NCBI GenBank assembly: GCA_023248635.1
Contig: JAHFED010000003.1
Location: 124,001 to 188,000, forward strand
Reading direction: 5' to 3'
Source of the DNA: Myxococcales bacterium
GTDB taxonomy: Bacteria; Myxococcota; UBA727; VGSZ01
DNA length: 64,000 nt
Under the pieces are notes generated by a model that had not been told where the DNA came from, searched no databases, and saw only the letters and a program-made list of their open reading frames with translations. Made by a program: the position numbers and the translations under genes. How positions within the stretch are numbered: position 1 is the stretch's first letter; each line of letters starts with the position of its first letter. Shown one piece after another: positions 10,386-59,593 of the stretch.

Positions 10386-10603
10386 GGCGCGGCGGCGGAC
10401 AACGCAAGCGCTCCGTCGACGTAGACCGCGCCGCGATGAGCCTGGATGCCGCTCTGGTGCGCGATCTCGTGCAGGGATCGTGTTGGAATACGCGCCCTCT
10501 CCTCGCTGCCCGGTCTTGACGCTGCCCGGTCTTGACGCTGCCGCAGCGCTCTCGGAGACGAAGGGGTTTGTGCACCCTCGAATGTTGCGTGGTATCGCCG
10601 AGC

Positions 10604-11521
10604 ATGGCGATTGAACGGCTGGCGCTCGTCGTCGTTGCGGTCTTGCTCGCCACCGGTGCGGCGCTGCTGATCGCCAGCGGGAGCCTGGTCGGGTTGAGCT
10701 CCTCTTCGCCGGCGGGCCCGATCCCTGCGCATCCCGGGGCTGGCGCTGCCGGGGAGCAGGTGAGTGAAACCTGGCTCGGCGTGCTGGTTGCTCCCGAAGC
10801 CGTCGACGTCACGCCGCGCTCGGATGTGCGGGTGCAGCGCATGGAAGTCGCTCTGGGTGAGCACGTCTCGGCTGGCCAACGCCTTGCGACCCTCGATCTC
10901 CGAGATCTGCAGCGCCAAGCCTCGAAGGTCGGCGCCGCCGTCGTCACCGCCGAAGCCGAGCAGCGCACCGCCGAAGCCGAGCTGCTGGAACAACGCGAGC
11001 GCCACGAGCGCCTGAAGTCCCTGCTGCCCCATGTTCCCGCTGCCGACGTCGTCGCTGCCGGCAACCGCGAGAGCGTGCTCGCCGCCCGCGTCGAGACTGC
11101 GGTGGCTGCTGTGGCCGAGCGCCGCGCCGCCGTCGACGAATTGGCCTCGCTGCTTGCGGCGGCCGAGCTCCGCGCCCCCTTCGACGGCGTCGTCGCTGTG
11201 CGCATGGCCGATGCGGGGGCACTGGTTGGTCCCGGACATCCACTGGCGCGCATTCTCAAGACCGGCGCGCTGCGGGTGCGCATGGCCCTGCCCCAAGGTG
11301 ACGCAGCCCTGGTGCATGTCGGTGACGTCGTCGCCGTCGACGTCGGGGGAGTGGCCCCGCTGAGCGGCGTGATCGACGCACTCTCGCCAGAGATCGACGA
11401 TTCGGCGCGCATGGTCTTCGCCGAAGCCCGTCTCGAGCCGACGGCGTCGACGCTGCCGGCTGGTGCCGTCGCCCGCATTTCTCGCCCAGCGCCGACCAGC
11501 CGCCGTGGAGCCCCGCAGTGA
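10604..11521 (+). CDS. HlyD-type periplasmic adaptor (first)
   Basis: A 305-residue membrane-fusion protein. One N-terminal transmembrane helix (about 5-28) is followed by a biotinyl-lipoyl half-domain (VRVQRMEVALGEHVSAGQRLATLD), a coiled-coil hairpin (about 90-175, rich in Ala/Glu/Arg) and the second half (AELRAPFDGVVAVRMADAGALVGPG). Such adaptors bridge an inner-membrane transporter to an outer-membrane channel. It is the first gene of the graspetide operon and overlaps the second adaptor by GTGA. The ATG at 10604 is chosen because it immediately precedes the membrane helix. No TolC-type gene is near. Confidence 0.8.
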   Translation: MAIERLALVVVAVLLATGAALLIASGSLVGLSSSSPAGPIPAHPGAGAAGEQVSETWLGVLVAPEAVDVTPRSDVRVQRMEVALGEHVSAGQRLATLDLRDLQRQASKVGAAVVTAEAEQRTAEAELLEQRERHERLKSLLPHVPAADVVAAGNRESVLAARVETAVAAVAERRAAVDELASLLAAAELRAPFDGVVAVRMADAGALVGPGHPLARILKTGALRVRMALPQGDAALVHVGDVVAVDVGGVAPLSGVIDALSPEIDDSARMVFAEARLEPTASTLPAGAVARISRPAPTSRRGAPQ

Positions 11522-12441
11522 CCGAGGTGCCGCTCTTTCGCGCGGAGGCGGTGCGCCACCACGAGCGTGAGCGTGGCGGCGACATGCTGCGCTTGTCGCC
11601 GGCCTGGATCTCACACTCCTACCGGGGTCTGGTGCTGGCCCTTGGCGCGGCCTTCGTCTTCTCGCTGGTCGCCGAGCTCGACGAGCACGCCCGTGGCCCC
11701 GTCGTCGTCCGCGTGACCGACGGGGCTCTGGTCACCGCCGTCGCTGCTGGCACGGTGCGCGTGGTTCAAGCGACGCCCGGCTCCCGCACCGAGGCCGGGG
11801 ATGCGTTGGTGCGTTTCAACGACGACGAAGAAAGGGCCGATCTCGTGCGCCTGACCCACGAGTTCGAGCTGCAACTCGCGAAACTCCTGGTCGATCCGCG
11901 CGATCAAACAGCCCGCGCCGCCGTCGTCGGCCTGCGCGCCGATCGGGAACGCGCTCTGGCCCGCATCGATGCCCGCGTCGTCAGGGCCCCCCGCGCCGGC
12001 GTCGTGCGCGACGTGCGCATCCGTCCAGGACAGCGCCTCGAAGCGGGCGACGCCGTCCTCACCGTCGTCGGCGATGATGCGCGCTTCACTTTGGCGGCCT
12101 TTCTCCCCGGGCATGCGCGCCCGCTGATCGCGCCTGGCGACAAATTGGTGGTCGAGCTCGAGGGCTACCGCGAACACCGAGCAGCCTTCGTCGTCGAAAG
12201 CGTCGGCGACGAGCTCATCGGGCCCACCGAGGTGCGCCGCTATTTGGGCCCCGAGATCGGCGACGCCGTCCCCGTCGTCGGACCGGTGGTCATCGTGACC
12301 GCATCCATCGGCGCCGGCACCTTCCTCGTCGACGGCCGCAGCATCGGCTACCACGACGGCATGTTGGGCTACGCCGACGTCGCCACCCGTCGAGAGCGAC
12401 TGCTCTTCGCGCTGGTGCCAGGTTTGCGAGGCCTGTTTTGA
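11518..12441 (+). CDS. HlyD-type periplasmic adaptor (second)
   Basis: A 307-residue HlyD-family protein starting at a GTG that overlaps the previous stop. One transmembrane helix (about 38-58, LVLALGAAFVFSLVAEL) is followed by a split lipoyl domain (AAGTVRVVQATPGSRTEAGD and VVRAPRAGVVRDVRIRPGQR), a short coiled coil and a beta-barrel part. The arrangement matches adaptors paired with peptidase-containing ABC exporters. Having two different adaptors suggests a heteromeric assembly with the downstream transporter. It overlaps the transporter start by TTGA, so the three export genes are translationally coupled. Confidence 0.82.
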   Translation: MTEVPLFRAEAVRHHERERGGDMLRLSPAWISHSYRGLVLALGAAFVFSLVAELDEHARGPVVVRVTDGALVTAVAAGTVRVVQATPGSRTEAGDALVRFNDDEERADLVRLTHEFELQLAKLLVDPRDQTARAAVVGLRADRERALARIDARVVRAPRAGVVRDVRIRPGQRLEAGDAVLTVVGDDARFTLAAFLPGHARPLIAPGDKLVVELEGYREHRAAFVVESVGDELIGPTEVRRYLGPEIGDAVPVVGPVVIVTASIGAGTFLVDGRSIGYHDGMLGYADVATRRERLLFALVPGLRGLF

Positions 12442-14699
12442 GCCGTGCCAACGGCTCGGACATCAATGCTGTGACGACGACGACGACGACGAAGACGTTG
12501 GCGGAGCGCTTTCCGGCTTTGGCGCGTCTCGGGATTTTCTCGGGCCATCGCGTGCCGGTGGTGTTGCAGCTCGAAGACGCCGATTGCGCCGCGGCGTGCC
12601 TCGCCATGGTGCTTGGGATCTATGGCCGGCACGTGCCCTTGCGCGAGGTCCGCGACGCCGCCGCCCCCGGACGGGATGGACACACCGCCCGCGTTCTCCT
12701 CGAGGCCGGTCACGTCTTTGGCCTGCGGGGGCGGGCCGCCCGCGTCGATCTGGATGCCCTGCCTTTCCTGCAAGCCGGCACGATCTTGCACTGGAACATG
12801 AGCCACTTCGTCGTCTTCGAGCGCAGCCGCAAAGGTGCCGTCGACGTCGTCGATCCTGCGGTGGGTCGCATCAGCCTTCCGCTCGAGGACTTCAAGCGCG
12901 CCTTTACCGGCGTCGTGCTCCTCTTTGAACCAGGCGAGGGCTTCGCCGCGCGCACCAAAGGCGCCTCCGCCGTCGCGCGTCACCTGCGCGTGGTGCTGGC
13001 CCACTCCGATCTCGTGACCCGCATCGTCGTCACCAGCCTCGCGCTGCAGCTGCTGGGTCTCGCCTTTCCTCTCATCACCGCCACCATCGTTGATCGCGTG
13101 GTGCCACGCGCCGACCTCCCTTTGCTCAGCGTGGTGGGTGCCGGCGTGTGCGCCGTCGTCGCCTTCGTGTTGCTGGGATCGCTGGTGCGCTCGCACTTGC
13201 TCTTGCACCTGCGCGTGCGGCTCGAGGCGACGTTGACGACGACGCTGGTGGAGCATCTGCTTGGCCTCCCCTACGCGTATTTTCTGCACCGCTCGGCGGG
13301 CGATCTGCTGGCGCGCCTCTCGAGCCTCGCGGTGGTGAGAGAGACCCTGACCGGTGCCACCGTCGGCGCCTTGCTCGATGGCGTTCTCGTCGCCCTCTAC
13401 GCCATCGCGCTCGTCGTGTTTGGCAAGGCCATCGGCGTCGCTGCCGTCGTGCTCGGGCTGCTGCAAGTAGGCGTCATCGTGTTCACGGCACGCCGACGGC
13501 GCGAGCTGCTGGCCGAGGCTCTGGCCCTGCAAGCACGGGCGGCCGGGATGCAGGTGGAGATGATCACCGGCGTGCAGACCCTCAAGGCCATCGCCGCCGA
13601 AGGGCGGGTGATCGCGCGCTGGGCCGACGCCTTCGTCGACGTCCTGAATGCCGGCTTGGTGCGCGGGCGCCTCGAGGCGGCGTCGGATGCCTTGTTGGCG
13701 GCCCTGCGCGTGGCCTCACCGCTCGCAGTGTTGGCGCTGGGCGCGTTGGCCGTCGTCAATGGCGAGCTCTCGCTGGGATCGATGTTGGGCCTGTCGGCGC
13801 TGGCCGGGGCCTTCTTTGGTCCCCTGGCGAACCTCGTCGGGGTCGCCGCCCAGTTGCAGATGCTGCAGAGCTACGTCGCCCGCATCGACGACGTGCTCGA
13901 TCATCCCCTCGAGGGCACCGGCGAACGGCGGCCGGCTCCGACGCTGACGGGCGCCATCGCCGTCGACGACGTCTCCTTCCGCTATGGCGCCGCCGGATCG
14001 CTGGTCTTGCAACACGTGTGCGTCGAGATCCCCGCGGGATCTTTCGTCGCCATCGTCGGCCGCTCGGGGGCTGGCAAGTCCACACTCGCTCAGCTCTTGC
14101 TTGGGCTGCACGAGCCGAGCGCAGGCCGGGTCACCTTCGACGGCGTCGACGTCGCCACCGTCGAGCTCCGCTCCTTGCGCCGCCAGCTCGGCGTGGTGCC
14201 CGAAGACCCGGGGCTCTTCGCCGGCACCATCCGCGACAACATCACCTTGGCCGCGCCCGACGCCACCCTCGACGACGTCGTCGACGCCGCCCGGCGGGCT
14301 GCGATCTTGGACGAGATCCTGGCCATGCCCCTCGGCCTCGACACGCTGGTGGGCGACCGCGGAGCCCGTTTGTCGGGGGGTCAACGCCAACGCGTGGCTC
14401 TGGCCCGCGCGCTGCTGGCTCGACCGGCAGTGCTGCTGCTCGATGAGGCCACCAGTGCACTCGACGCCGCCACGGAGGCCGCCGTGCAGGCGAATCTGGC
14501 CGCGTTGCGCTGTACCCGCGTGGTCATCGCCCACCGGCTGTCGACAGTGACCCAGGCCGATCTGATCCTGGTGCTGGAGGGGGGTCAGCTCATCGAACGC
14601 GGCACCCACCAAGAGCTGCTGGCCGTGGGCGGCGCTTACGCCCGTCTGGTGGCAGCGCAGCTGGGCTCGGCTGTGACCGGCACACCGAAAGCGCTTTGA
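12438..14699 (+). CDS. C39-peptidase-containing ABC exporter (PCAT)
   Basis: A 753-residue bifunctional exporter. Residues 30-155 form a peptidase C39 domain: Gln44, Cys50 in EDADCAAAC, His123 in NMSHFVV and Asp139 in VVDP make a full catalytic set. A six-helix ABC transmembrane domain follows (about 185-470). The nucleotide-binding domain has Walker A GRSGAGKST, signature LSGGQ and Walker B LLLDEATS. Such proteins cut the leader after a double-Gly-type site and export the peptide. The start is a TTG overlapping the previous stop. The next gene encodes a peptide with a matching ELDEVVGA site, so this is very probably its dedicated protease and exporter. Confidence 0.92.
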   Translation: MSRANGSDINAVTTTTTTKTLAERFPALARLGIFSGHRVPVVLQLEDADCAAACLAMVLGIYGRHVPLREVRDAAAPGRDGHTARVLLEAGHVFGLRGRAARVDLDALPFLQAGTILHWNMSHFVVFERSRKGAVDVVDPAVGRISLPLEDFKRAFTGVVLLFEPGEGFAARTKGASAVARHLRVVLAHSDLVTRIVVTSLALQLLGLAFPLITATIVDRVVPRADLPLLSVVGAGVCAVVAFVLLGSLVRSHLLLHLRVRLEATLTTTLVEHLLGLPYAYFLHRSAGDLLARLSSLAVVRETLTGATVGALLDGVLVALYAIALVVFGKAIGVAAVVLGLLQVGVIVFTARRRRELLAEALALQARAAGMQVEMITGVQTLKAIAAEGRVIARWADAFVDVLNAGLVRGRLEAASDALLAALRVASPLAVLALGALAVVNGELSLGSMLGLSALAGAFFGPLANLVGVAAQLQMLQSYVARIDDVLDHPLEGTGERRPAPTLTGAIAVDDVSFRYGAAGSLVLQHVCVEIPAGSFVAIVGRSGAGKSTLAQLLLGLHEPSAGRVTFDGVDVATVELRSLRRQLGVVPEDPGLFAGTIRDNITLAAPDATLDDVVDAARRAAILDEILAMPLGLDTLVGDRGARLSGGQRQRVALARALLARPAVLLLDEATSALDAATEAAVQANLAALRCTRVVIAHRLSTVTQADLILVLEGGQLIERGTHQELLAVGGAYARLVAAQLGSAVTGTPKAL

Positions 14700-14752: not shown

Positions 14753-14932
14753 ATGAGCAACGACAACAACGAAAAGCCCGCGCTGCCCTTCTTCGCCCGC
14801 TTCCTCGAAGGCCAAGAGCTCGATGAAGTCGTCGGCGCCAGAGGTGCCCGCACCTTGAAATACCCCTCCGACGCCGACGAAGCCGTAACGATGAAGTATC
14901 CGTCCGACGACGACGAAACGATCAAGCAATAG
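14753..14932 (+). CDS. Two-core graspetide (microviridin-type) precursor
   Basis: A 59-residue RiPP precursor with GGGAGAG before its ATG. The leader carries PFFARFLE (residues 12-19), the helix that microviridin ATP-grasp ligases bind, then ELDEVVGA (22-29), a double-Gly-type C39 cleavage site. The core has two repeats, TLKYPSDADE (34-43) and TMKYPSDDDE (46-55). Each holds the microviridin T-x-K-Y-P-S-D motif. In microviridins Thr and Ser form esters with acidic residues and Lys forms an amide; position 9 is Asp here instead of the usual Glu. Export gene upstream and two ligases downstream, 9 bp away, support the role. The product may be a protease inhibitor, as for known microviridins. Confidence 0.93.
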   Translation: MSNDNNEKPALPFFARFLEGQELDEVVGARGARTLKYPSDADEAVTMKYPSDDDETIKQ

Positions 14933-14941
14933 TGGCGTTCG

Positions 14942-15907
14942 ATGAGCGGGACCGTTCTCCTGCTCACGCACACCGGTGATTTCTTCACCATCGATCGCGT
15001 TGCGGCCGCACTCCAACAGCTGGGGGCGCGGCCGTTTCGTTTGGACACCGACCGTTTCCCCGCGAGCTTGGGCTTGTCCCACCGCTCGGGTTCGGGGGCG
15101 AGCCTGGTGCGGCGCGACGGCGGCGATGAGCTGGTCCTTGAGGACGTTTCGGCGGTCTGGGTGCGGCACATCTGGCAGCCCAGTCTCGATCCCGCGCTCG
15201 ACCCGCGATTCGTCGAGCACAGCCTGCGCGAGACCTACGCCGCCTTCACGGGGCTGCTCGATGCGCTGCACGGCGCCTCCTGGATCGACAGACCAGTCGT
15301 TGCCAGCGCCGCCGAGGACAAAGCGCGCCAGCTCCGACTCGCAAAAGACGCAGGCCTCGCGATCCCACGGACTCTGCTGAGCAACGATCCCGTCGCCGTG
15401 CGCGCCTTCGCCGCCGAGATTGCGGCGCCCATCGTCTGCAAGCTCCTGCGTCCCCTATCGGTCAGCATGGGTCGCAGCGGGGCCTTCGTCGGCACCAACC
15501 TCCTGCGCCCCGAGGACCTCGCCGACCTCGAGGGCCTGCGCCACTGTCCCATGCTCTTTCAAGAGCGCATCGAGAAAGAACGTGAGCTTCGCATCGTCTT
15601 CGTCGACGGCGACGTCTTCTGTGGTTCCCTTTTTGCGCCCCCCGGTTCGAAGGGGGGCGTCGATTGGCGCCTCGCCGAGCCGGGTGAGCTGGCCTGGCGA
15701 AAAGACAGCGTCCCCGACGACGTCGCCGCCGGCATCGGCGCTTTGATGGCACGGCTGGGGCTGCGCTTTGGGGCCCTCGATGTCATTCGCGAACCGGGGG
15801 GCCGGCACGTGTTCCTCGAGGTGAACCCCGGGGGCGAGTGGGGCATGCTCGAACGCGACCTTGGCCTCCCCATTTCGCTCGCCATCGCGCGCGCGCTGCT
15901 TCGGTGA
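14942..15907 (+). CDS. Graspetide ATP-grasp ligase (MvdC/MdnB-like)
   Basis: A 321-residue ATP-grasp enzyme that should form macrocyclic ester or amide links in the precursor. The N-terminal part (GTVLLLTHTGDFFTIDRVAAAL, then RPFRLDTDRFP and VWVRHIWQP) is the substrate-binding region seen in MvdC/MvdD-type ligases. The ATP-grasp part has IVCKLLRPLSVS (ATP-binding Lys), MLFQERIEKERELRIVFVDG, and the metal-binding FLEVNPGGEWGML near the end. It begins 9 bp after the precursor stop. Assignment to the MvdC (lactam) side rather than MvdD is by gene order and is tentative. Confidence 0.85.
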   Translation: MSGTVLLLTHTGDFFTIDRVAAALQQLGARPFRLDTDRFPASLGLSHRSGSGASLVRRDGGDELVLEDVSAVWVRHIWQPSLDPALDPRFVEHSLRETYAAFTGLLDALHGASWIDRPVVASAAEDKARQLRLAKDAGLAIPRTLLSNDPVAVRAFAAEIAAPIVCKLLRPLSVSMGRSGAFVGTNLLRPEDLADLEGLRHCPMLFQERIEKERELRIVFVDGDVFCGSLFAPPGSKGGVDWRLAEPGELAWRKDSVPDDVAAGIGALMARLGLRFGALDVIREPGGRHVFLEVNPGGEWGMLERDLGLPISLAIARALLR

Positions 15908-15913
15908 AGCGAC

Positions 15914-16879
15914 ATGCAAGTTCTCTTGGTCACAAAGAGCGACGACAACGAAAGCGTGCCTCTCGTTGCAGGCGCGCTGCGAGCCCGTGGCGCAGATCCG
16001 GTGCGCCTGGACACCGATCGTTTTCCCACCGAAGTGAAGCTCGCGCTGACCTGCTCCCGCGACGCCGAAGCCACGCACCTGATCATCGACGGCCGCACCA
16101 TCGACCTCGCCGACGTCGGCAGCGTCTGGTGGAGGAGGTTGAACGTCGCCGGCCGCCTGCCCCCCTCTGTGCCCGCGCCCCTGCGCGCGCCGAGCGTGCT
16201 CGAATCGCAGGCCAGTCTCTATGGTGCGCTGCAATCCCACCGCGGTCGCTTCATTGACCGACCAACGACCATCCGCGCCGCCGAGGTCAAAGCGCGGCAG
16301 ATGCAAGAGGCCCGCAAGCTCGGTCTCGACGTTCCCCGCACCCTCACCACCAACGACGCCGACGCCGTCCGCGCTTTTGCCAAAGACATCCCGCAGGGCC
16401 TGATCGTGAAGATGCTGTCGTCGTTCGCCGTGCACGAAGACGGCCTCGAAAAAGTGGTCTTCACCAACGAAGTCAGCGCCAGCGACCTCGGCGACCTCAG
16501 CGGCTTGCACCTCTGCCCGATGACTTTTCAGGAGAAGCTCGAAAAACAGGTCGAGCTGCGCGCCACCGTCGTCGGCAACCGCGTCTTCGTCGCCGCCGTC
16601 GATTCTCAAGCGAGTGAACGCGCCCGCCTCGATTGGCGCCGCGATGGCCGGGCTCTCGTCAAGTCCTGGAAACCCGTCGAGCTGCCCAAAGACGTCGAAG
16701 CCAAGCTCGTTGCCCTGGTCGCAGGCTTCGGCCTGACCTACAGCGCCGCGGATTTCATTCTCACGCCCGATGGACGCTGCGTGTTCCTCGAGTCGAACCC
16801 CGCGGGCGAATGGTTCTGGCTGCAGCTCTACGCCGGCCTGCCCATTGCCGACGCCCTCGCCGACGCCCTCGTCAGCTGA
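15914..16879 (+). CDS. Graspetide ATP-grasp ligase (MvdD/MdnC-like)
   Basis: A 321-residue paralogue of the preceding ligase, 6 bp downstream. Features are VRLDTDRFP and SVWWRRL in the N-terminal domain, LIVKMLSSFAVHEDG at the ATP-binding Lys, CPMTFQEKLEKQVELRATVV, SERARLDWRR and the metal-binding VFLESNPAGEW. The TFQE...ELR.TVVG...VFVAAVDSQ...LDWRR pattern resembles MvdD/MdnC, the enzyme that makes the two ester bonds in microviridins. It is the last gene of the cluster and converges with miaB, overlapping its 3' end by 8 bp. No acetyltransferase gene (mdnD) is present. Confidence 0.87.
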   Translation: MQVLLVTKSDDNESVPLVAGALRARGADPVRLDTDRFPTEVKLALTCSRDAEATHLIIDGRTIDLADVGSVWWRRLNVAGRLPPSVPAPLRAPSVLESQASLYGALQSHRGRFIDRPTTIRAAEVKARQMQEARKLGLDVPRTLTTNDADAVRAFAKDIPQGLIVKMLSSFAVHEDGLEKVVFTNEVSASDLGDLSGLHLCPMTFQEKLEKQVELRATVVGNRVFVAAVDSQASERARLDWRRDGRALVKSWKPVELPKDVEAKLVALVAGFGLTYSAADFILTPDGRCVFLESNPAGEWFWLQLYAGLPIADALADALVS

Positions 16880-25845: not shown

Positions 25846-25868
25846 GGTGTTTTGGCTGCTGAGATGGC

Positions 25869-26055
25869 GCTGGCGCGTCTTGAAGTGCTGACGGTTCAAG
25901 CCGCTGGCGCGTCTTGAAGTGCTGACGGTTCAAGCCGCTGGCGCGTCTTGAAGTGCTGACGGTTCAAGCCGCTGGCGCATCTTGAAGTGCTGACGGGTCA
26001 AGCCGCTGGCGCATCTTGAAGTGCTGAGGGTTCAAGCCGCTGGCGCATCTTGAAC
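25869..26055. repeat. Six-copy 34-bp tandem array of the palindrome
   Basis: Copies begin at 25869, 25903, 25937, 25971, 26005 and 26039, exactly 34 bp apart. Each unit contains GCTGGCGCGTCTTGAA (CAT for CGT in the last three), then AGTGCTGACGG, then TTCAAGCC, so adjacent units form the AAGcCGC/GCGTCTT palindrome. There are no unique spacers. It lies between the ROK terminator and the yceI-like gene. Confidence 0.9.
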
Positions 26056-26946: not shown

Positions 26947-28713
26947 GTGGGTTCGACGGCGCCGATGTCGGGTGAGCATGTGTTGCATGGCTTGGGAGTG
27001 GCGCCTGGCGTGGCCACGGGCCGCGTGCACCTCATCGATCGCCGTCGAAAAAAATACCCCAAGCGCCGCGTCAGCGCCGACGTCGTCGATGCTGAAGTGC
27101 TCCGGCTCGAGAGCGCCTGGCAGGAGGCGCGCGAGCTCCTGCTCTCTTTGAAGGAAAAGGCGGGCGAGCACAGCGCCATTCTCGAGGCCCATCTGTTGAT
27201 GTTGGAAGATCCCCTGCTCATCGACGGGGCCAAGAAGCACATCCTCGACGATCGCAAATGCGCCGAGTGGGCCATCCGCGCGACGGTGACCGAGATCCGC
27301 ACGCGCTTCGAGGCCCTCGACAACGCCTACTTCCGGGAGAGGCGCAGCGACGTCGATTTCGTCGGCGACCGCCTGCTGGATGCCCTCGGCGGCGATCCGG
27401 CGTCGGGGGGCTTGGCTGCCGAGGTCATCCCCGACGACGCCATCATCGTGGCCCACGAGCTCTCGCCGGGCGACGCCATCGCTCTCGCACGCCGAAAGGT
27501 GCGCGGCTTCGTCACCGAGGTGGGCGGCGCCACCAGCCACACCGCCATCCTGGCGCGCGCTCTCGAGATCCCCGCCGTCATCGCTTGCAAGGGCGTGCTC
27601 GATCGCGCGGCCTCTGGCGAGGAGATCCTCGTCGACGGTTTGCGCGGCGAGGTGGTGTTGTCGCCGTCGCCGGCGGCGCACGCTCGCTTCCAGACCTTTC
27701 AGAGCATTCACAATGCCCGCCAGAGCGATCTGCGCGCCGACGAAGGCCTGCCCGGCGAGACGCCCGACGGGCGCCGGGTGGAATTGCTCGCCAACGTCGA
27801 AGTCCCCGACGAAGTCCCCGCCGCCGTCGCCCGCGGAGCTGGAGGGGTGGGGCTGTACCGCAGCGAGTTCCTCTTCCTGAACCGCAGTGAGGTGCCGAAC
27901 GTCGACGAGCACGAGCAGGCCTACGACGCCATTCTGAGCGCCCTCGACGGACGGCCCGCCACGCTGCGCACCTTCGATCTCGGTTCCGACAAGCTCTCGG
28001 CGGCCATTCGCGCGCCGCGGGAGCAAAACCCTGCGCTCGGCCTGCGGGGCGTGCGCCTGGGCCTCGCGCGTCTGCCGGCGTTGCGGGCCCAGCTGCGGGG
28101 CATGGTGCGCTCGCTGTCTCGTCGACGACACGGCCAGATCCTCTTGCCGATGATCGGCAGCGTCGAAGAAGTGCTCGCCGTGCGTGCGCTCTTGCGTGAA
28201 GAGATGGACACGCTGCACGACGAAGGCGTCGACGTGTGGCGGCAGATCCCGGTCGGGGTGATGATCGAGCTGCCCGCGGCGGTGTGGATCGCCGACGCCC
28301 TCGCCGAGGTCGCCGACTTCTTCTCCGTCGGCACCAACGATCTCATTCAGTACATGCTGGCCATCGATCGCGGCAACGAGCACGTCGCCCACCTCTACCA
28401 ACCCTTGCACCCTGCGGTGTTGCGCGCCCTGCGCCACGTCGTCGAAGCCGGCCACCACGCGGGCAAGAGCGTCAGCCTCTGCGGCGAGATGGCCGCTGAC
28501 CCTTCCTTCGCCCCCGTCGTCCTCGGTCTGGGTTTTGATTCCCTGTCGATGCCGGTGGCCTCGCTGCGCGCGGTGAAGCACGTGATCCGTCGCTTCCGCT
28601 ACGACGACGCCCAAAAACTCGTACAGCAGTGCCTGGCAGCGTCGACGTCTGCCGCGGTGCAGAAGCTCGTGCGCAAAGAGCTGATCCTGCGCGGCCTGTA
28701 CGAAGCGGACTGA
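26947..28713 (+). CDS. ptsI: PTS enzyme I (PEP-protein phosphotransferase)
   Basis: A 588-residue enzyme that transfers phosphate from phosphoenolpyruvate to HPr. The N-terminal domain includes GLGVAPGVATGRVHL, and the phosphorylated His198 sits in EVGGATSHTAILARALEIPAV. The C-terminal PEP-binding barrel has GVGLYRSEFLFL, RTFDLGSDK, NPALGLRGVRL, GVMIELPAAVWIAD, FFSVGTNDLIQYMLAIDR and the active-site Cys region VSLCGEMAADP. GTG at 26947 has a TAnnnT box 6 nt upstream; ATG at 26965 is an alternative. No ptsH or sugar permease is nearby, so a regulatory or nitrogen-PTS role is possible. Its stop codon begins a dispersed repeat element. Confidence 0.92.
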   Translation: MGSTAPMSGEHVLHGLGVAPGVATGRVHLIDRRRKKYPKRRVSADVVDAEVLRLESAWQEARELLLSLKEKAGEHSAILEAHLLMLEDPLLIDGAKKHILDDRKCAEWAIRATVTEIRTRFEALDNAYFRERRSDVDFVGDRLLDALGGDPASGGLAAEVIPDDAIIVAHELSPGDAIALARRKVRGFVTEVGGATSHTAILARALEIPAVIACKGVLDRAASGEEILVDGLRGEVVLSPSPAAHARFQTFQSIHNARQSDLRADEGLPGETPDGRRVELLANVEVPDEVPAAVARGAGGVGLYRSEFLFLNRSEVPNVDEHEQAYDAILSALDGRPATLRTFDLGSDKLSAAIRAPREQNPALGLRGVRLGLARLPALRAQLRGMVRSLSRRRHGQILLPMIGSVEEVLAVRALLREEMDTLHDEGVDVWRQIPVGVMIELPAAVWIADALAEVADFFSVGTNDLIQYMLAIDRGNEHVAHLYQPLHPAVLRALRHVVEAGHHAGKSVSLCGEMAADPSFAPVVLGLGFDSLSMPVASLRAVKHVIRRFRYDDAQKLVQQCLAASTSAAVQKLVRKELILRGLYEAD

Positions 28714-28920
28714 TCCCCGATCTCGCTGAACTTCGACCGCGGACCGGTCTCGTTCATCTCCGTCGGGGATGCCCTTCTGGGAGGTCTGGTGCAGACCTCC
28801 CCCCGCGCCGGCGGAGCCGGACGCGGGGCCCCCCACCAACTCCGCGGGCGCGCTTCACGCGCATCATCCCGCGTCTTCCCATCTCGGAACGCGGTCGAAC
28901 ATCAAGCGGACGCGGGATGA
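28711..28920 (+). repeat. Structured dispersed element, copy A
   Basis: About 210 bp, nearly identical over large parts to the minus strand of 59375-59593. It can fold into four hairpins: ATCCCCGA/TCGGGGAT (28713-28770, with nested TGAAC/GTTCA and GACCG/CGGTC); GGGAGGTCT/AGACCTCCC (28779-28801); CCCCGCG-CCGGC/GCCGG-CGCGGGG (28801-28828); and TCATCCCGCGTC/GACGCGGGATGA (28864-28920). It begins at the ptsI stop and ends just before the moeA stop, so it lies between convergent genes. It could be a MITE-like element, a bidirectional terminator or a structured RNA. Confidence 0.85.
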
Positions 28921-50465: not shown

Positions 50466-50489
50466 TTCAAGACGCGCGAGCGTCTTGAA
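50466..50489. repeat. Palindromic repeat between convergent genes
   Basis: TTCAAGACGC-GCGA-GCGTCTTGAA in the 37-bp gap between the convergent genes ending at 50463 and 50501. It could act as a terminator for both, although T-tracts are lacking. Confidence 0.85.
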
Positions 50490-50500
50490 CCAGCAGAGCT

Positions 50501-51097
50501 TCATTTCGGCAGTCGCGCCGCCAACGCCTTGAGCCGTTGCACCGGCAGAGCATCGATCAGACCCCCGCCCAGCCGCCGGACCGCAATGGCAATGACGTCG
50601 TTGTCGTCGTCGAGAATGGGTGCGCCCCGCGGGAGCGGCAACATCACCCGCCAGCGATCGGGAGCCTGATGCTCGACGCCGCCCAACATCCCCTGCACCC
50701 CAGCCTCGGCGCGGGCGAGCCCCACCAACCAGCGCGTGGGCCGTTGCCGAGACGAAATGCCCAAGGCGGCGACGTCGACGGCCTCCTTCACCTGCACGAG
50801 GGCCAGACCATCAGCGTCGACGACGACGACGACGCCGGCCTCGACCTTGTCGGCGGACACGAGCACTGCGTCGCCCACGTGGGCCCCGGGAAGCAGCGTG
50901 CACAAGAGCCCCGTCGAAGAGACAAAGAAACCCTGGCTGCTTTCAGGCCGATCTGCTCCAGCGACGGCGACGACGACGACGGCGCCAGCGTAGCGGCGGG
51001 CAACCTCCTGCGGCTGGGGCATGCGCGCCTGCGCCCTCGTGTCCGGCGCCCCAGCTGCGAGTGCGACGACGACGACGAGCGCCGCACCGAGCTTCAC
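50501..51097 (-). CDS. Secreted degenerate trypsin-like protein
   Basis: A 198-residue protein with a signal peptide (VKLGAALVVVVALAAGAPDTRAQA). The rest follows the trypsin/HtrA beta-barrel layout: GFFVSSTGLLCTLLPGAHVGDAVLVSA, VVDADGLALVQVKEAVDVAALG and a final GAPILDDDNDVIAIAV strand. The catalytic pieces are not kept: the usual GNSGGP is PRGAPILDD, and the His motif TxxHVV reads LLPGAHVG. It is probably a pseudoprotease binding partner. The GTG start overlaps the response-regulator stop, so the two are translationally coupled. Confidence 0.6.
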   Translation of the reverse strand: MKLGAALVVVVALAAGAPDTRAQARMPQPQEVARRYAGAVVVVAVAGADRPESSQGFFVSSTGLLCTLLPGAHVGDAVLVSADKVEAGVVVVVDADGLALVQVKEAVDVAALGISSRQRPTRWLVGLARAEAGVQGMLGGVEHQAPDRWRVMLPLPRGAPILDDDNDVIAIAVRRLGGGLIDALPVQRLKALAARLPK

Positions 51098-59374: not shown

Positions 59375-59593
59375 AATCCCGCGTCCGCTTGATGTTCGAC
59401 CGCGTTCCGAGATGGGAAAGACGCGGGATGATGCGCGTGAAGCGCGCCCGCGGAACGCGGAGTTGGAGGCCCCGCGTCCGGGGGGGGGGGTCTGCACCCG
59501 CTGCACCAGCTGCACCAGACCTCCCAGAAGAGCATCCCCGACGGCGATGAACGAGACCGCTCCGCGGTCGAAGTTCAGCGAGATCGGGGATCA
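59375..59593 (-). repeat. Structured dispersed element, copy B
   Basis: About 219 bp, nearly identical on the minus strand to 28711-28920. Shared parts are the first hairpin with nested stems and the last third. The middle differs: the hairpin with loop GGTGC is replaced by a CAGCTGGTGCAG-type repeat, and a run of ten or more C/G residues is present. It lies in the 632-bp gap between the gene ending at 59227 and the lipid kinase. Reading frames across it are probably not real. Confidence 0.85.

Follow-up and report, generated by a model that had tools for sequence, protein, structure and literature searches.

The question raised by this locus is whether a microviridin-type precursor whose leader carries both a docking motif for ATP-grasp ligases and a C39 cleavage site, followed by two cores, departs from the known systems or belongs to one of them. 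The precursor, MSNDNNEKPALPFFARFLEGQELDEVVGARGARTLKYPSDADEAVTMKYPSDDDETIKQ, is encoded in a 64,000-nucleotide stretch of DNA from a Myxococcales bacterium, referred to here as the window. The locus is very likely an intact class II microviridin (graspetide) cluster, with docking, ring closure and C39 cleavage and export proceeding as proposed below, and its product is probably a protease inhibitor.

The precursor gene sits in a tight six-gene directon on the + strand, in the order HlyD, HlyD, C39-ABC transporter, precursor, MvdC-like ligase and MvdD-like ligase (Table 1). Both junctions among the first three genes are 4-base overlaps, and the subsequent gaps measure 53, 9 and 6 bases; the directon region showed no sigma-70-like promoter. 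An earlier, sequence-only reading had assumed a PCAT and ligases as neighbours, and family scores verify a C39 ABC transporter upstream of the precursor and two MvdC/MvdD-type ATP-grasp ligases downstream. The peptidase-containing ABC transporter (PCAT), the listed TTG start of which is uncertain in its exact position, comprises a C39 domain (aa 39-166), a membrane domain (196-463) and an ATPase (524-673). Among solved structures, 6mpz, a double-Gly protease domain, is the closest match to the C39 domain, in which Gln44, Cys50, His123 and Asp139 occupy the aligned catalytic motifs.

Table 1 Features of the microviridin-type cluster, with positions in the window.
Feature	Position	Strand	Basis
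HlyD-family periplasmic adaptor, 329 aa, first directon gene	10532..11521	+	PF13437, PF16576; TIGR01730 above cut-off
Second HlyD-family adaptor, 307 aa, 4-nt overlap with the first	11518..12441	+	PF13437 52.3 bits
Peptidase-containing ABC transporter (PCAT)	12438..14699	+	PF03412 103 bits, PF00664, PF00005
Microviridin-type precursor, 59 aa	14753..14932	+	NF033738 53.1 bits, PF12559 47.3 bits
PFFARFLE docking motif for ATP-grasp ligases, aa 12-19	14786..14809	+	Residue conservation; role from PMC7823629
C39 double-Gly-type signal LEGQELDEVVGA, aa 18-29	14804..14839	+	Strict -12/-7/-4/-2/-1 pattern
Core 1 TLKYPSDADE, aa 34-43	14852..14881	+	Matches TX1KYPSDX2(D/E)(E/D)
Core 2 TMKYPSDDDE, aa 46-55	14888..14917	+	Matches TX1KYPSDX2(D/E)(E/D)
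MvdC-like ATP-grasp ligase, predicted lactam former Lys3-Glu10	14942..15907	+	TIGR04185
MvdD-like ATP-grasp ligase, predicted double lactone former	15914..16879	+	TIGR04184; 5ig9

All parts of the cluster and the conserved motifs are present. The precursor scores above the curated cut-offs of both NCBIfam NF033738 (cut-off 26 bits) and Pfam PF12559 (cut-off 21 bits). In the docking motif, to which a docking role for the ATP-grasp ligases has been assigned (PMC7823629), P-F-F-A-R and the following-but-one Leu are invariant across 17 aligned precursors. The C39 signal fits a strict double-Gly pattern, defined as hydrophobic residues at -12, -7 and -4 followed by G[G/A/S], which 186 of 20,000 shuffled leaders (~1%) also fit. 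Beyond this low rate, 16 related precursors keep the pattern with identical spacing, so a chance occurrence is unlikely. Where aligned relatives have GG, the window precursor has GA, and the predicted C39 cut falls after Ala29. Both leader motifs recognised in the sequence-only reading are thus verified, except that ELDEVVGA does not follow PFFARFLE at once, as had been stated: GQ separates them.

The same reading took the co-occurrence of a docking motif and a C39 site to be unusual, a view for which single-core class I leaders had served as the reference. Most class I precursors have no double-Gly motif, whereas class II microviridins feature multi-core precursors, double-Gly motifs and C39 transporters (PMC13039773, PMC7823629). 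The combination of a two-core precursor, a double-Gly site and a C39 transporter is already published as class II, and the claimed novelty is unsupported. Family membership is indicated in the window by the PFFARFL-type motif (aa 12-18), two consensus cores and adjacent MvdC- and MvdD-like ligases; class II features are the two cores per leader, the double-Gly-type motif in its GA variant and the cluster-encoded C39 transporter. For comparison, relatives were collected as loci found via the MvdD-like ligase (mostly cyanobacteria, with Sorangium, Planctomycetes and others) and via the precursor, which yielded 73 precursors besides that of the window. C39 domains were counted near at least 10 of 66 sources with a single query sequence and near at least 14 with a profile, both numbers being lower bounds set by the 6-kb flanks.

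A C39 cut at VVGA is not the sole conceivable fate of this leader. Another protease could remove it, with the PCAT serving a different substrate or acting in export only; this is an unlikely reading. It draws on the Ala at -1, on the class I leader being cut by the protease NosP and not by a C39 domain (PMC13039773), and on the scarcity of adjacent PCAT genes among those relatives in family f13, of the window's phylum, that carry the same motif. Against it stand the strict C39 pattern, kept at a fixed spacing, and the gene order, with the sole C39 domain detected in the genome encoded one gene upstream. A PF03412 search of the genome, which is 96.7% complete, returned this domain alone, and an NF033738 search returned the window precursor alone; in two species of the same genus, the same searches found neither a C39 domain nor a precursor. 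For a different graspetide transporter, in vitro cleavage of its precursor after GG by the C39 domain has been reported (PMC13039773). Cleavage by the directon's own PCAT remains the preferred reading. Of the earlier proposal that maturation and export are linked through the PCAT, the link itself is strengthened by the two motifs in one leader and the single C39 domain in the same directon, while the idea that the combination is unusual falls, class II having it.

Assignment of the ligases rests on relative score and gene order, since both fall below the NCBI equivalog cut-offs. The MvdC-like ligase scores 369 bits with TIGR04185 (cut-off 425) against 248 with TIGR04184, and the MvdD-like ligase scores 379 bits with TIGR04184 (cut-off 475) against 268 with TIGR04185. 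The closest solved relative of the latter is MdnC (5ig9), aligned end to end (E 3e-84). Residues 191, 192 and 195 of MdnC are reported to hold the Arg of PFFARFL (PMC7823629); at these three helix-binding sites, the window enzyme has Ser for Glu191, keeps Asp192 and has Asp for Asn195, changes that are common among relatives. Two lactones and one lactam per core would be expected by analogy with characterised relatives. A bicyclic, marinostatin-like product, with two lactones only and an MvdC-like enzyme inactive on these cores, appears still less probable than the alternative on cleavage: the sub-cut-off TIGR04185 score and the restriction of the cited AMdnA work to lactones leave room for it, but an MvdC-type gene is kept beside the MvdD-type gene, both here and in most f13 relatives, and both cores retain Lys3 and an acidic residue at position 10.

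The two cores, closely spaced by an AV linker, both have Asp at position 9 and no aromatic residue at position 8, as had been noted from the sequence. The well-known single-core microviridins carry Glu at position 9, yet that Asp-9 cores are degenerate and fail to form the second lactone is hardly credible, given Asp at this position in 111 of 205 relative cores (Glu in 93) and in 35 of the 40 cores of the 19 f13 precursors, and given the effect of mutation D95A on AMdnA. In that protein, AMdnC forms two lactones on the cores, core 3 using Asp95 at position 9, and D95A removes just the second lactone of core 3 (PMC5934393). The published core consensus, TX1KYPSDX2(D/E)(E/D), permits Asp at 9 and leaves position 8 free (PMC5934393), and position 8 is aromatic in only 1 of the 205 relative cores. 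The description of the cores as variant is therefore withdrawn, and the two residues are rejected as marks of variant cores.

A real but small peculiarity of the window precursor, as judged from the leader sequence, is its compact spacing. Between the end of PFFAR.L and the last residue of the Gly doublet, that residue included, the count is 11 in the window precursor and in all 16 f13 precursors that fit the strict pattern. Cyanobacterial class II leaders have 18-19 residues, in 62 of the 71 other precursors first read under a relaxed rule (a Gly doublet plus a hydrophobic residue at -4) and in 37 under the strict rule. With a spacing of 11, the last Leu of PFFARFL (Leu18) coincides with position -12 of the C39 signal, LEGQELDEVVGA. 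The f13 compact-leader precursors (e.g., L089, L090 and L093) share PFFARLLEAQELEQAAGG and mostly carry a pair of Asp-9 cores; 16 otherwise diverged precursors keep the docking motif, the C39 signal and the cores. The compact-leader f13 precursors differ from that of the window in having Gly at -1 (GG) in all cases, and in mostly lacking a PCAT within 8 kb, from which it follows that the compact leader needs no adjacent PCAT. In the MvdD tree, the window groups with cyanobacteria (97/92) on a long branch, and the MvdC tree leaves its placement unresolved; a clade of window and f13 is not rejected by the ligase trees (p-AU 0.227 and 0.148). The trees fit shared descent of the compact leader with f13 as well as its absence.

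Leaders vary further among relatives. Three of the 19 f13 precursors lack the strict double-Gly pattern. L088, L097 and L112 (genus g60), in f13, feature PFFARLLEGQ or PFFARLLESQ and no double-Gly motif, so their leader protease must differ; same-genus relatives have the motif. The Sorangium group has yet another type of leader (PFFARFLE.Q...RTGVKAG). In the compact-leader clusters L120 and L121 (G130 and G127), a 606-aa open frame downstream of the MvdD-like gene contains a divergent C39-like domain; these clusters also have an additional ATP-grasp gene, the third and a divergent one, and a full PCAT ~9 kb away from the precursor. Viral contigs gave no relative of either the precursor or the MvdC-like ligase, and plasmids yielded distant ligases only (best 51%, Nostoc).

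By analogy with characterised relatives, maturation may be outlined as follows. The PFFARFL helix would dock on and activate the MvdD-like ligase first, which would close the Thr1-Asp7 and then the Ser6-Asp9 lactone in each core; the MvdC-like ligase, docked and activated in the same way, would then link Lys3 to Glu10 as a lactam. Next, cleavage after Gly28-Ala29 by the PCAT's C39 domain would be coupled to export, in which the PCAT would work with both HlyD adaptors and with a TolC-like porin whose gene lies elsewhere to release RGAR-core1-AV-core2-TIKQ. Such an outer-membrane partner is plausible, as the TolC-type family PF02321 has 17 matches elsewhere in the genome. The exported peptide would probably inhibit serine proteases.

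The compact leader suggests a further, rather doubtful idea. A low-confidence AlphaFold model (mean pLDDT 61), used for helix extent only, places one helix at aa 13-27 of the precursor, spanning the docking motif and the C39 signal. Since Leu18 is common to both motifs, ligase docking and C39 recognition may exclude each other, which may order maturation before export. In the window precursor and its compact-leader relatives, docking helix and C39 signal might thus form one helix, with a bound ligase delaying cleavage until the rings are closed. If true, no checkpoint of this kind would operate in the long-spacer leaders of cyanobacteria; the short leader makes competition between ligase and PCAT for one helix a testable question.

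Repeats were observed elsewhere in the window. A 34-nt tandem array with a palindrome-like unit, TTCAAGCCGCTGGCGCGTCTTGAA, occupies positions 25868-26054, and related copies of the unit are scattered at 1885-1954, 2869-2953 and 50467-50503. Near-identical inverted repeats at 28711-28918 and 59376-59593, ~30 kb apart (96-100% identity over 40-84 nt pieces), may be copies of an intergenic or mobile element. Among the related loci, L092/L006 (G005), L095 (G186), L103 (G183), L105 (G181) and L108 (G154) encode very long precursors of the microviridin type, in which a single frame holds 10-13 or more TXK[YAF]PSD cores, a mixture of KYPSD and KAPSD, with Gly-rich linkers between them; the cited literature describes up to five cores. 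At the loci checked (L134 and L136), MvdC- and MvdD-like genes directly follow such precursors.

The class II cluster in the window is clean and compact, comes from outside the cyanobacteria and includes the sole C39 domain found in its genome, which would make it convenient for reconstituting ring closure, leader cleavage and export together. Class I systems (Microcystis, Planktothrix, Nostoc) share with it the PFFARFL docking motif, the ligase pair and the KYPSD core, but have a single core, mostly no double-Gly motif and no cluster-encoded leader peptidase (PMC13039773). Class II systems (AMdnA/AMdnC, Anabaena PCC 7120 and relatives) share the PFFARFL leader, the double-Gly site, several TXKYPSDX(D/E)(E/D) cores, the MvdC and MvdD ligases and, often nearby, a C39 transporter. 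Compared with these class II systems, the window precursor is 7-8 residues shorter between PFFARFL and the doublet, has GA instead of GG, and links its cores by AV.
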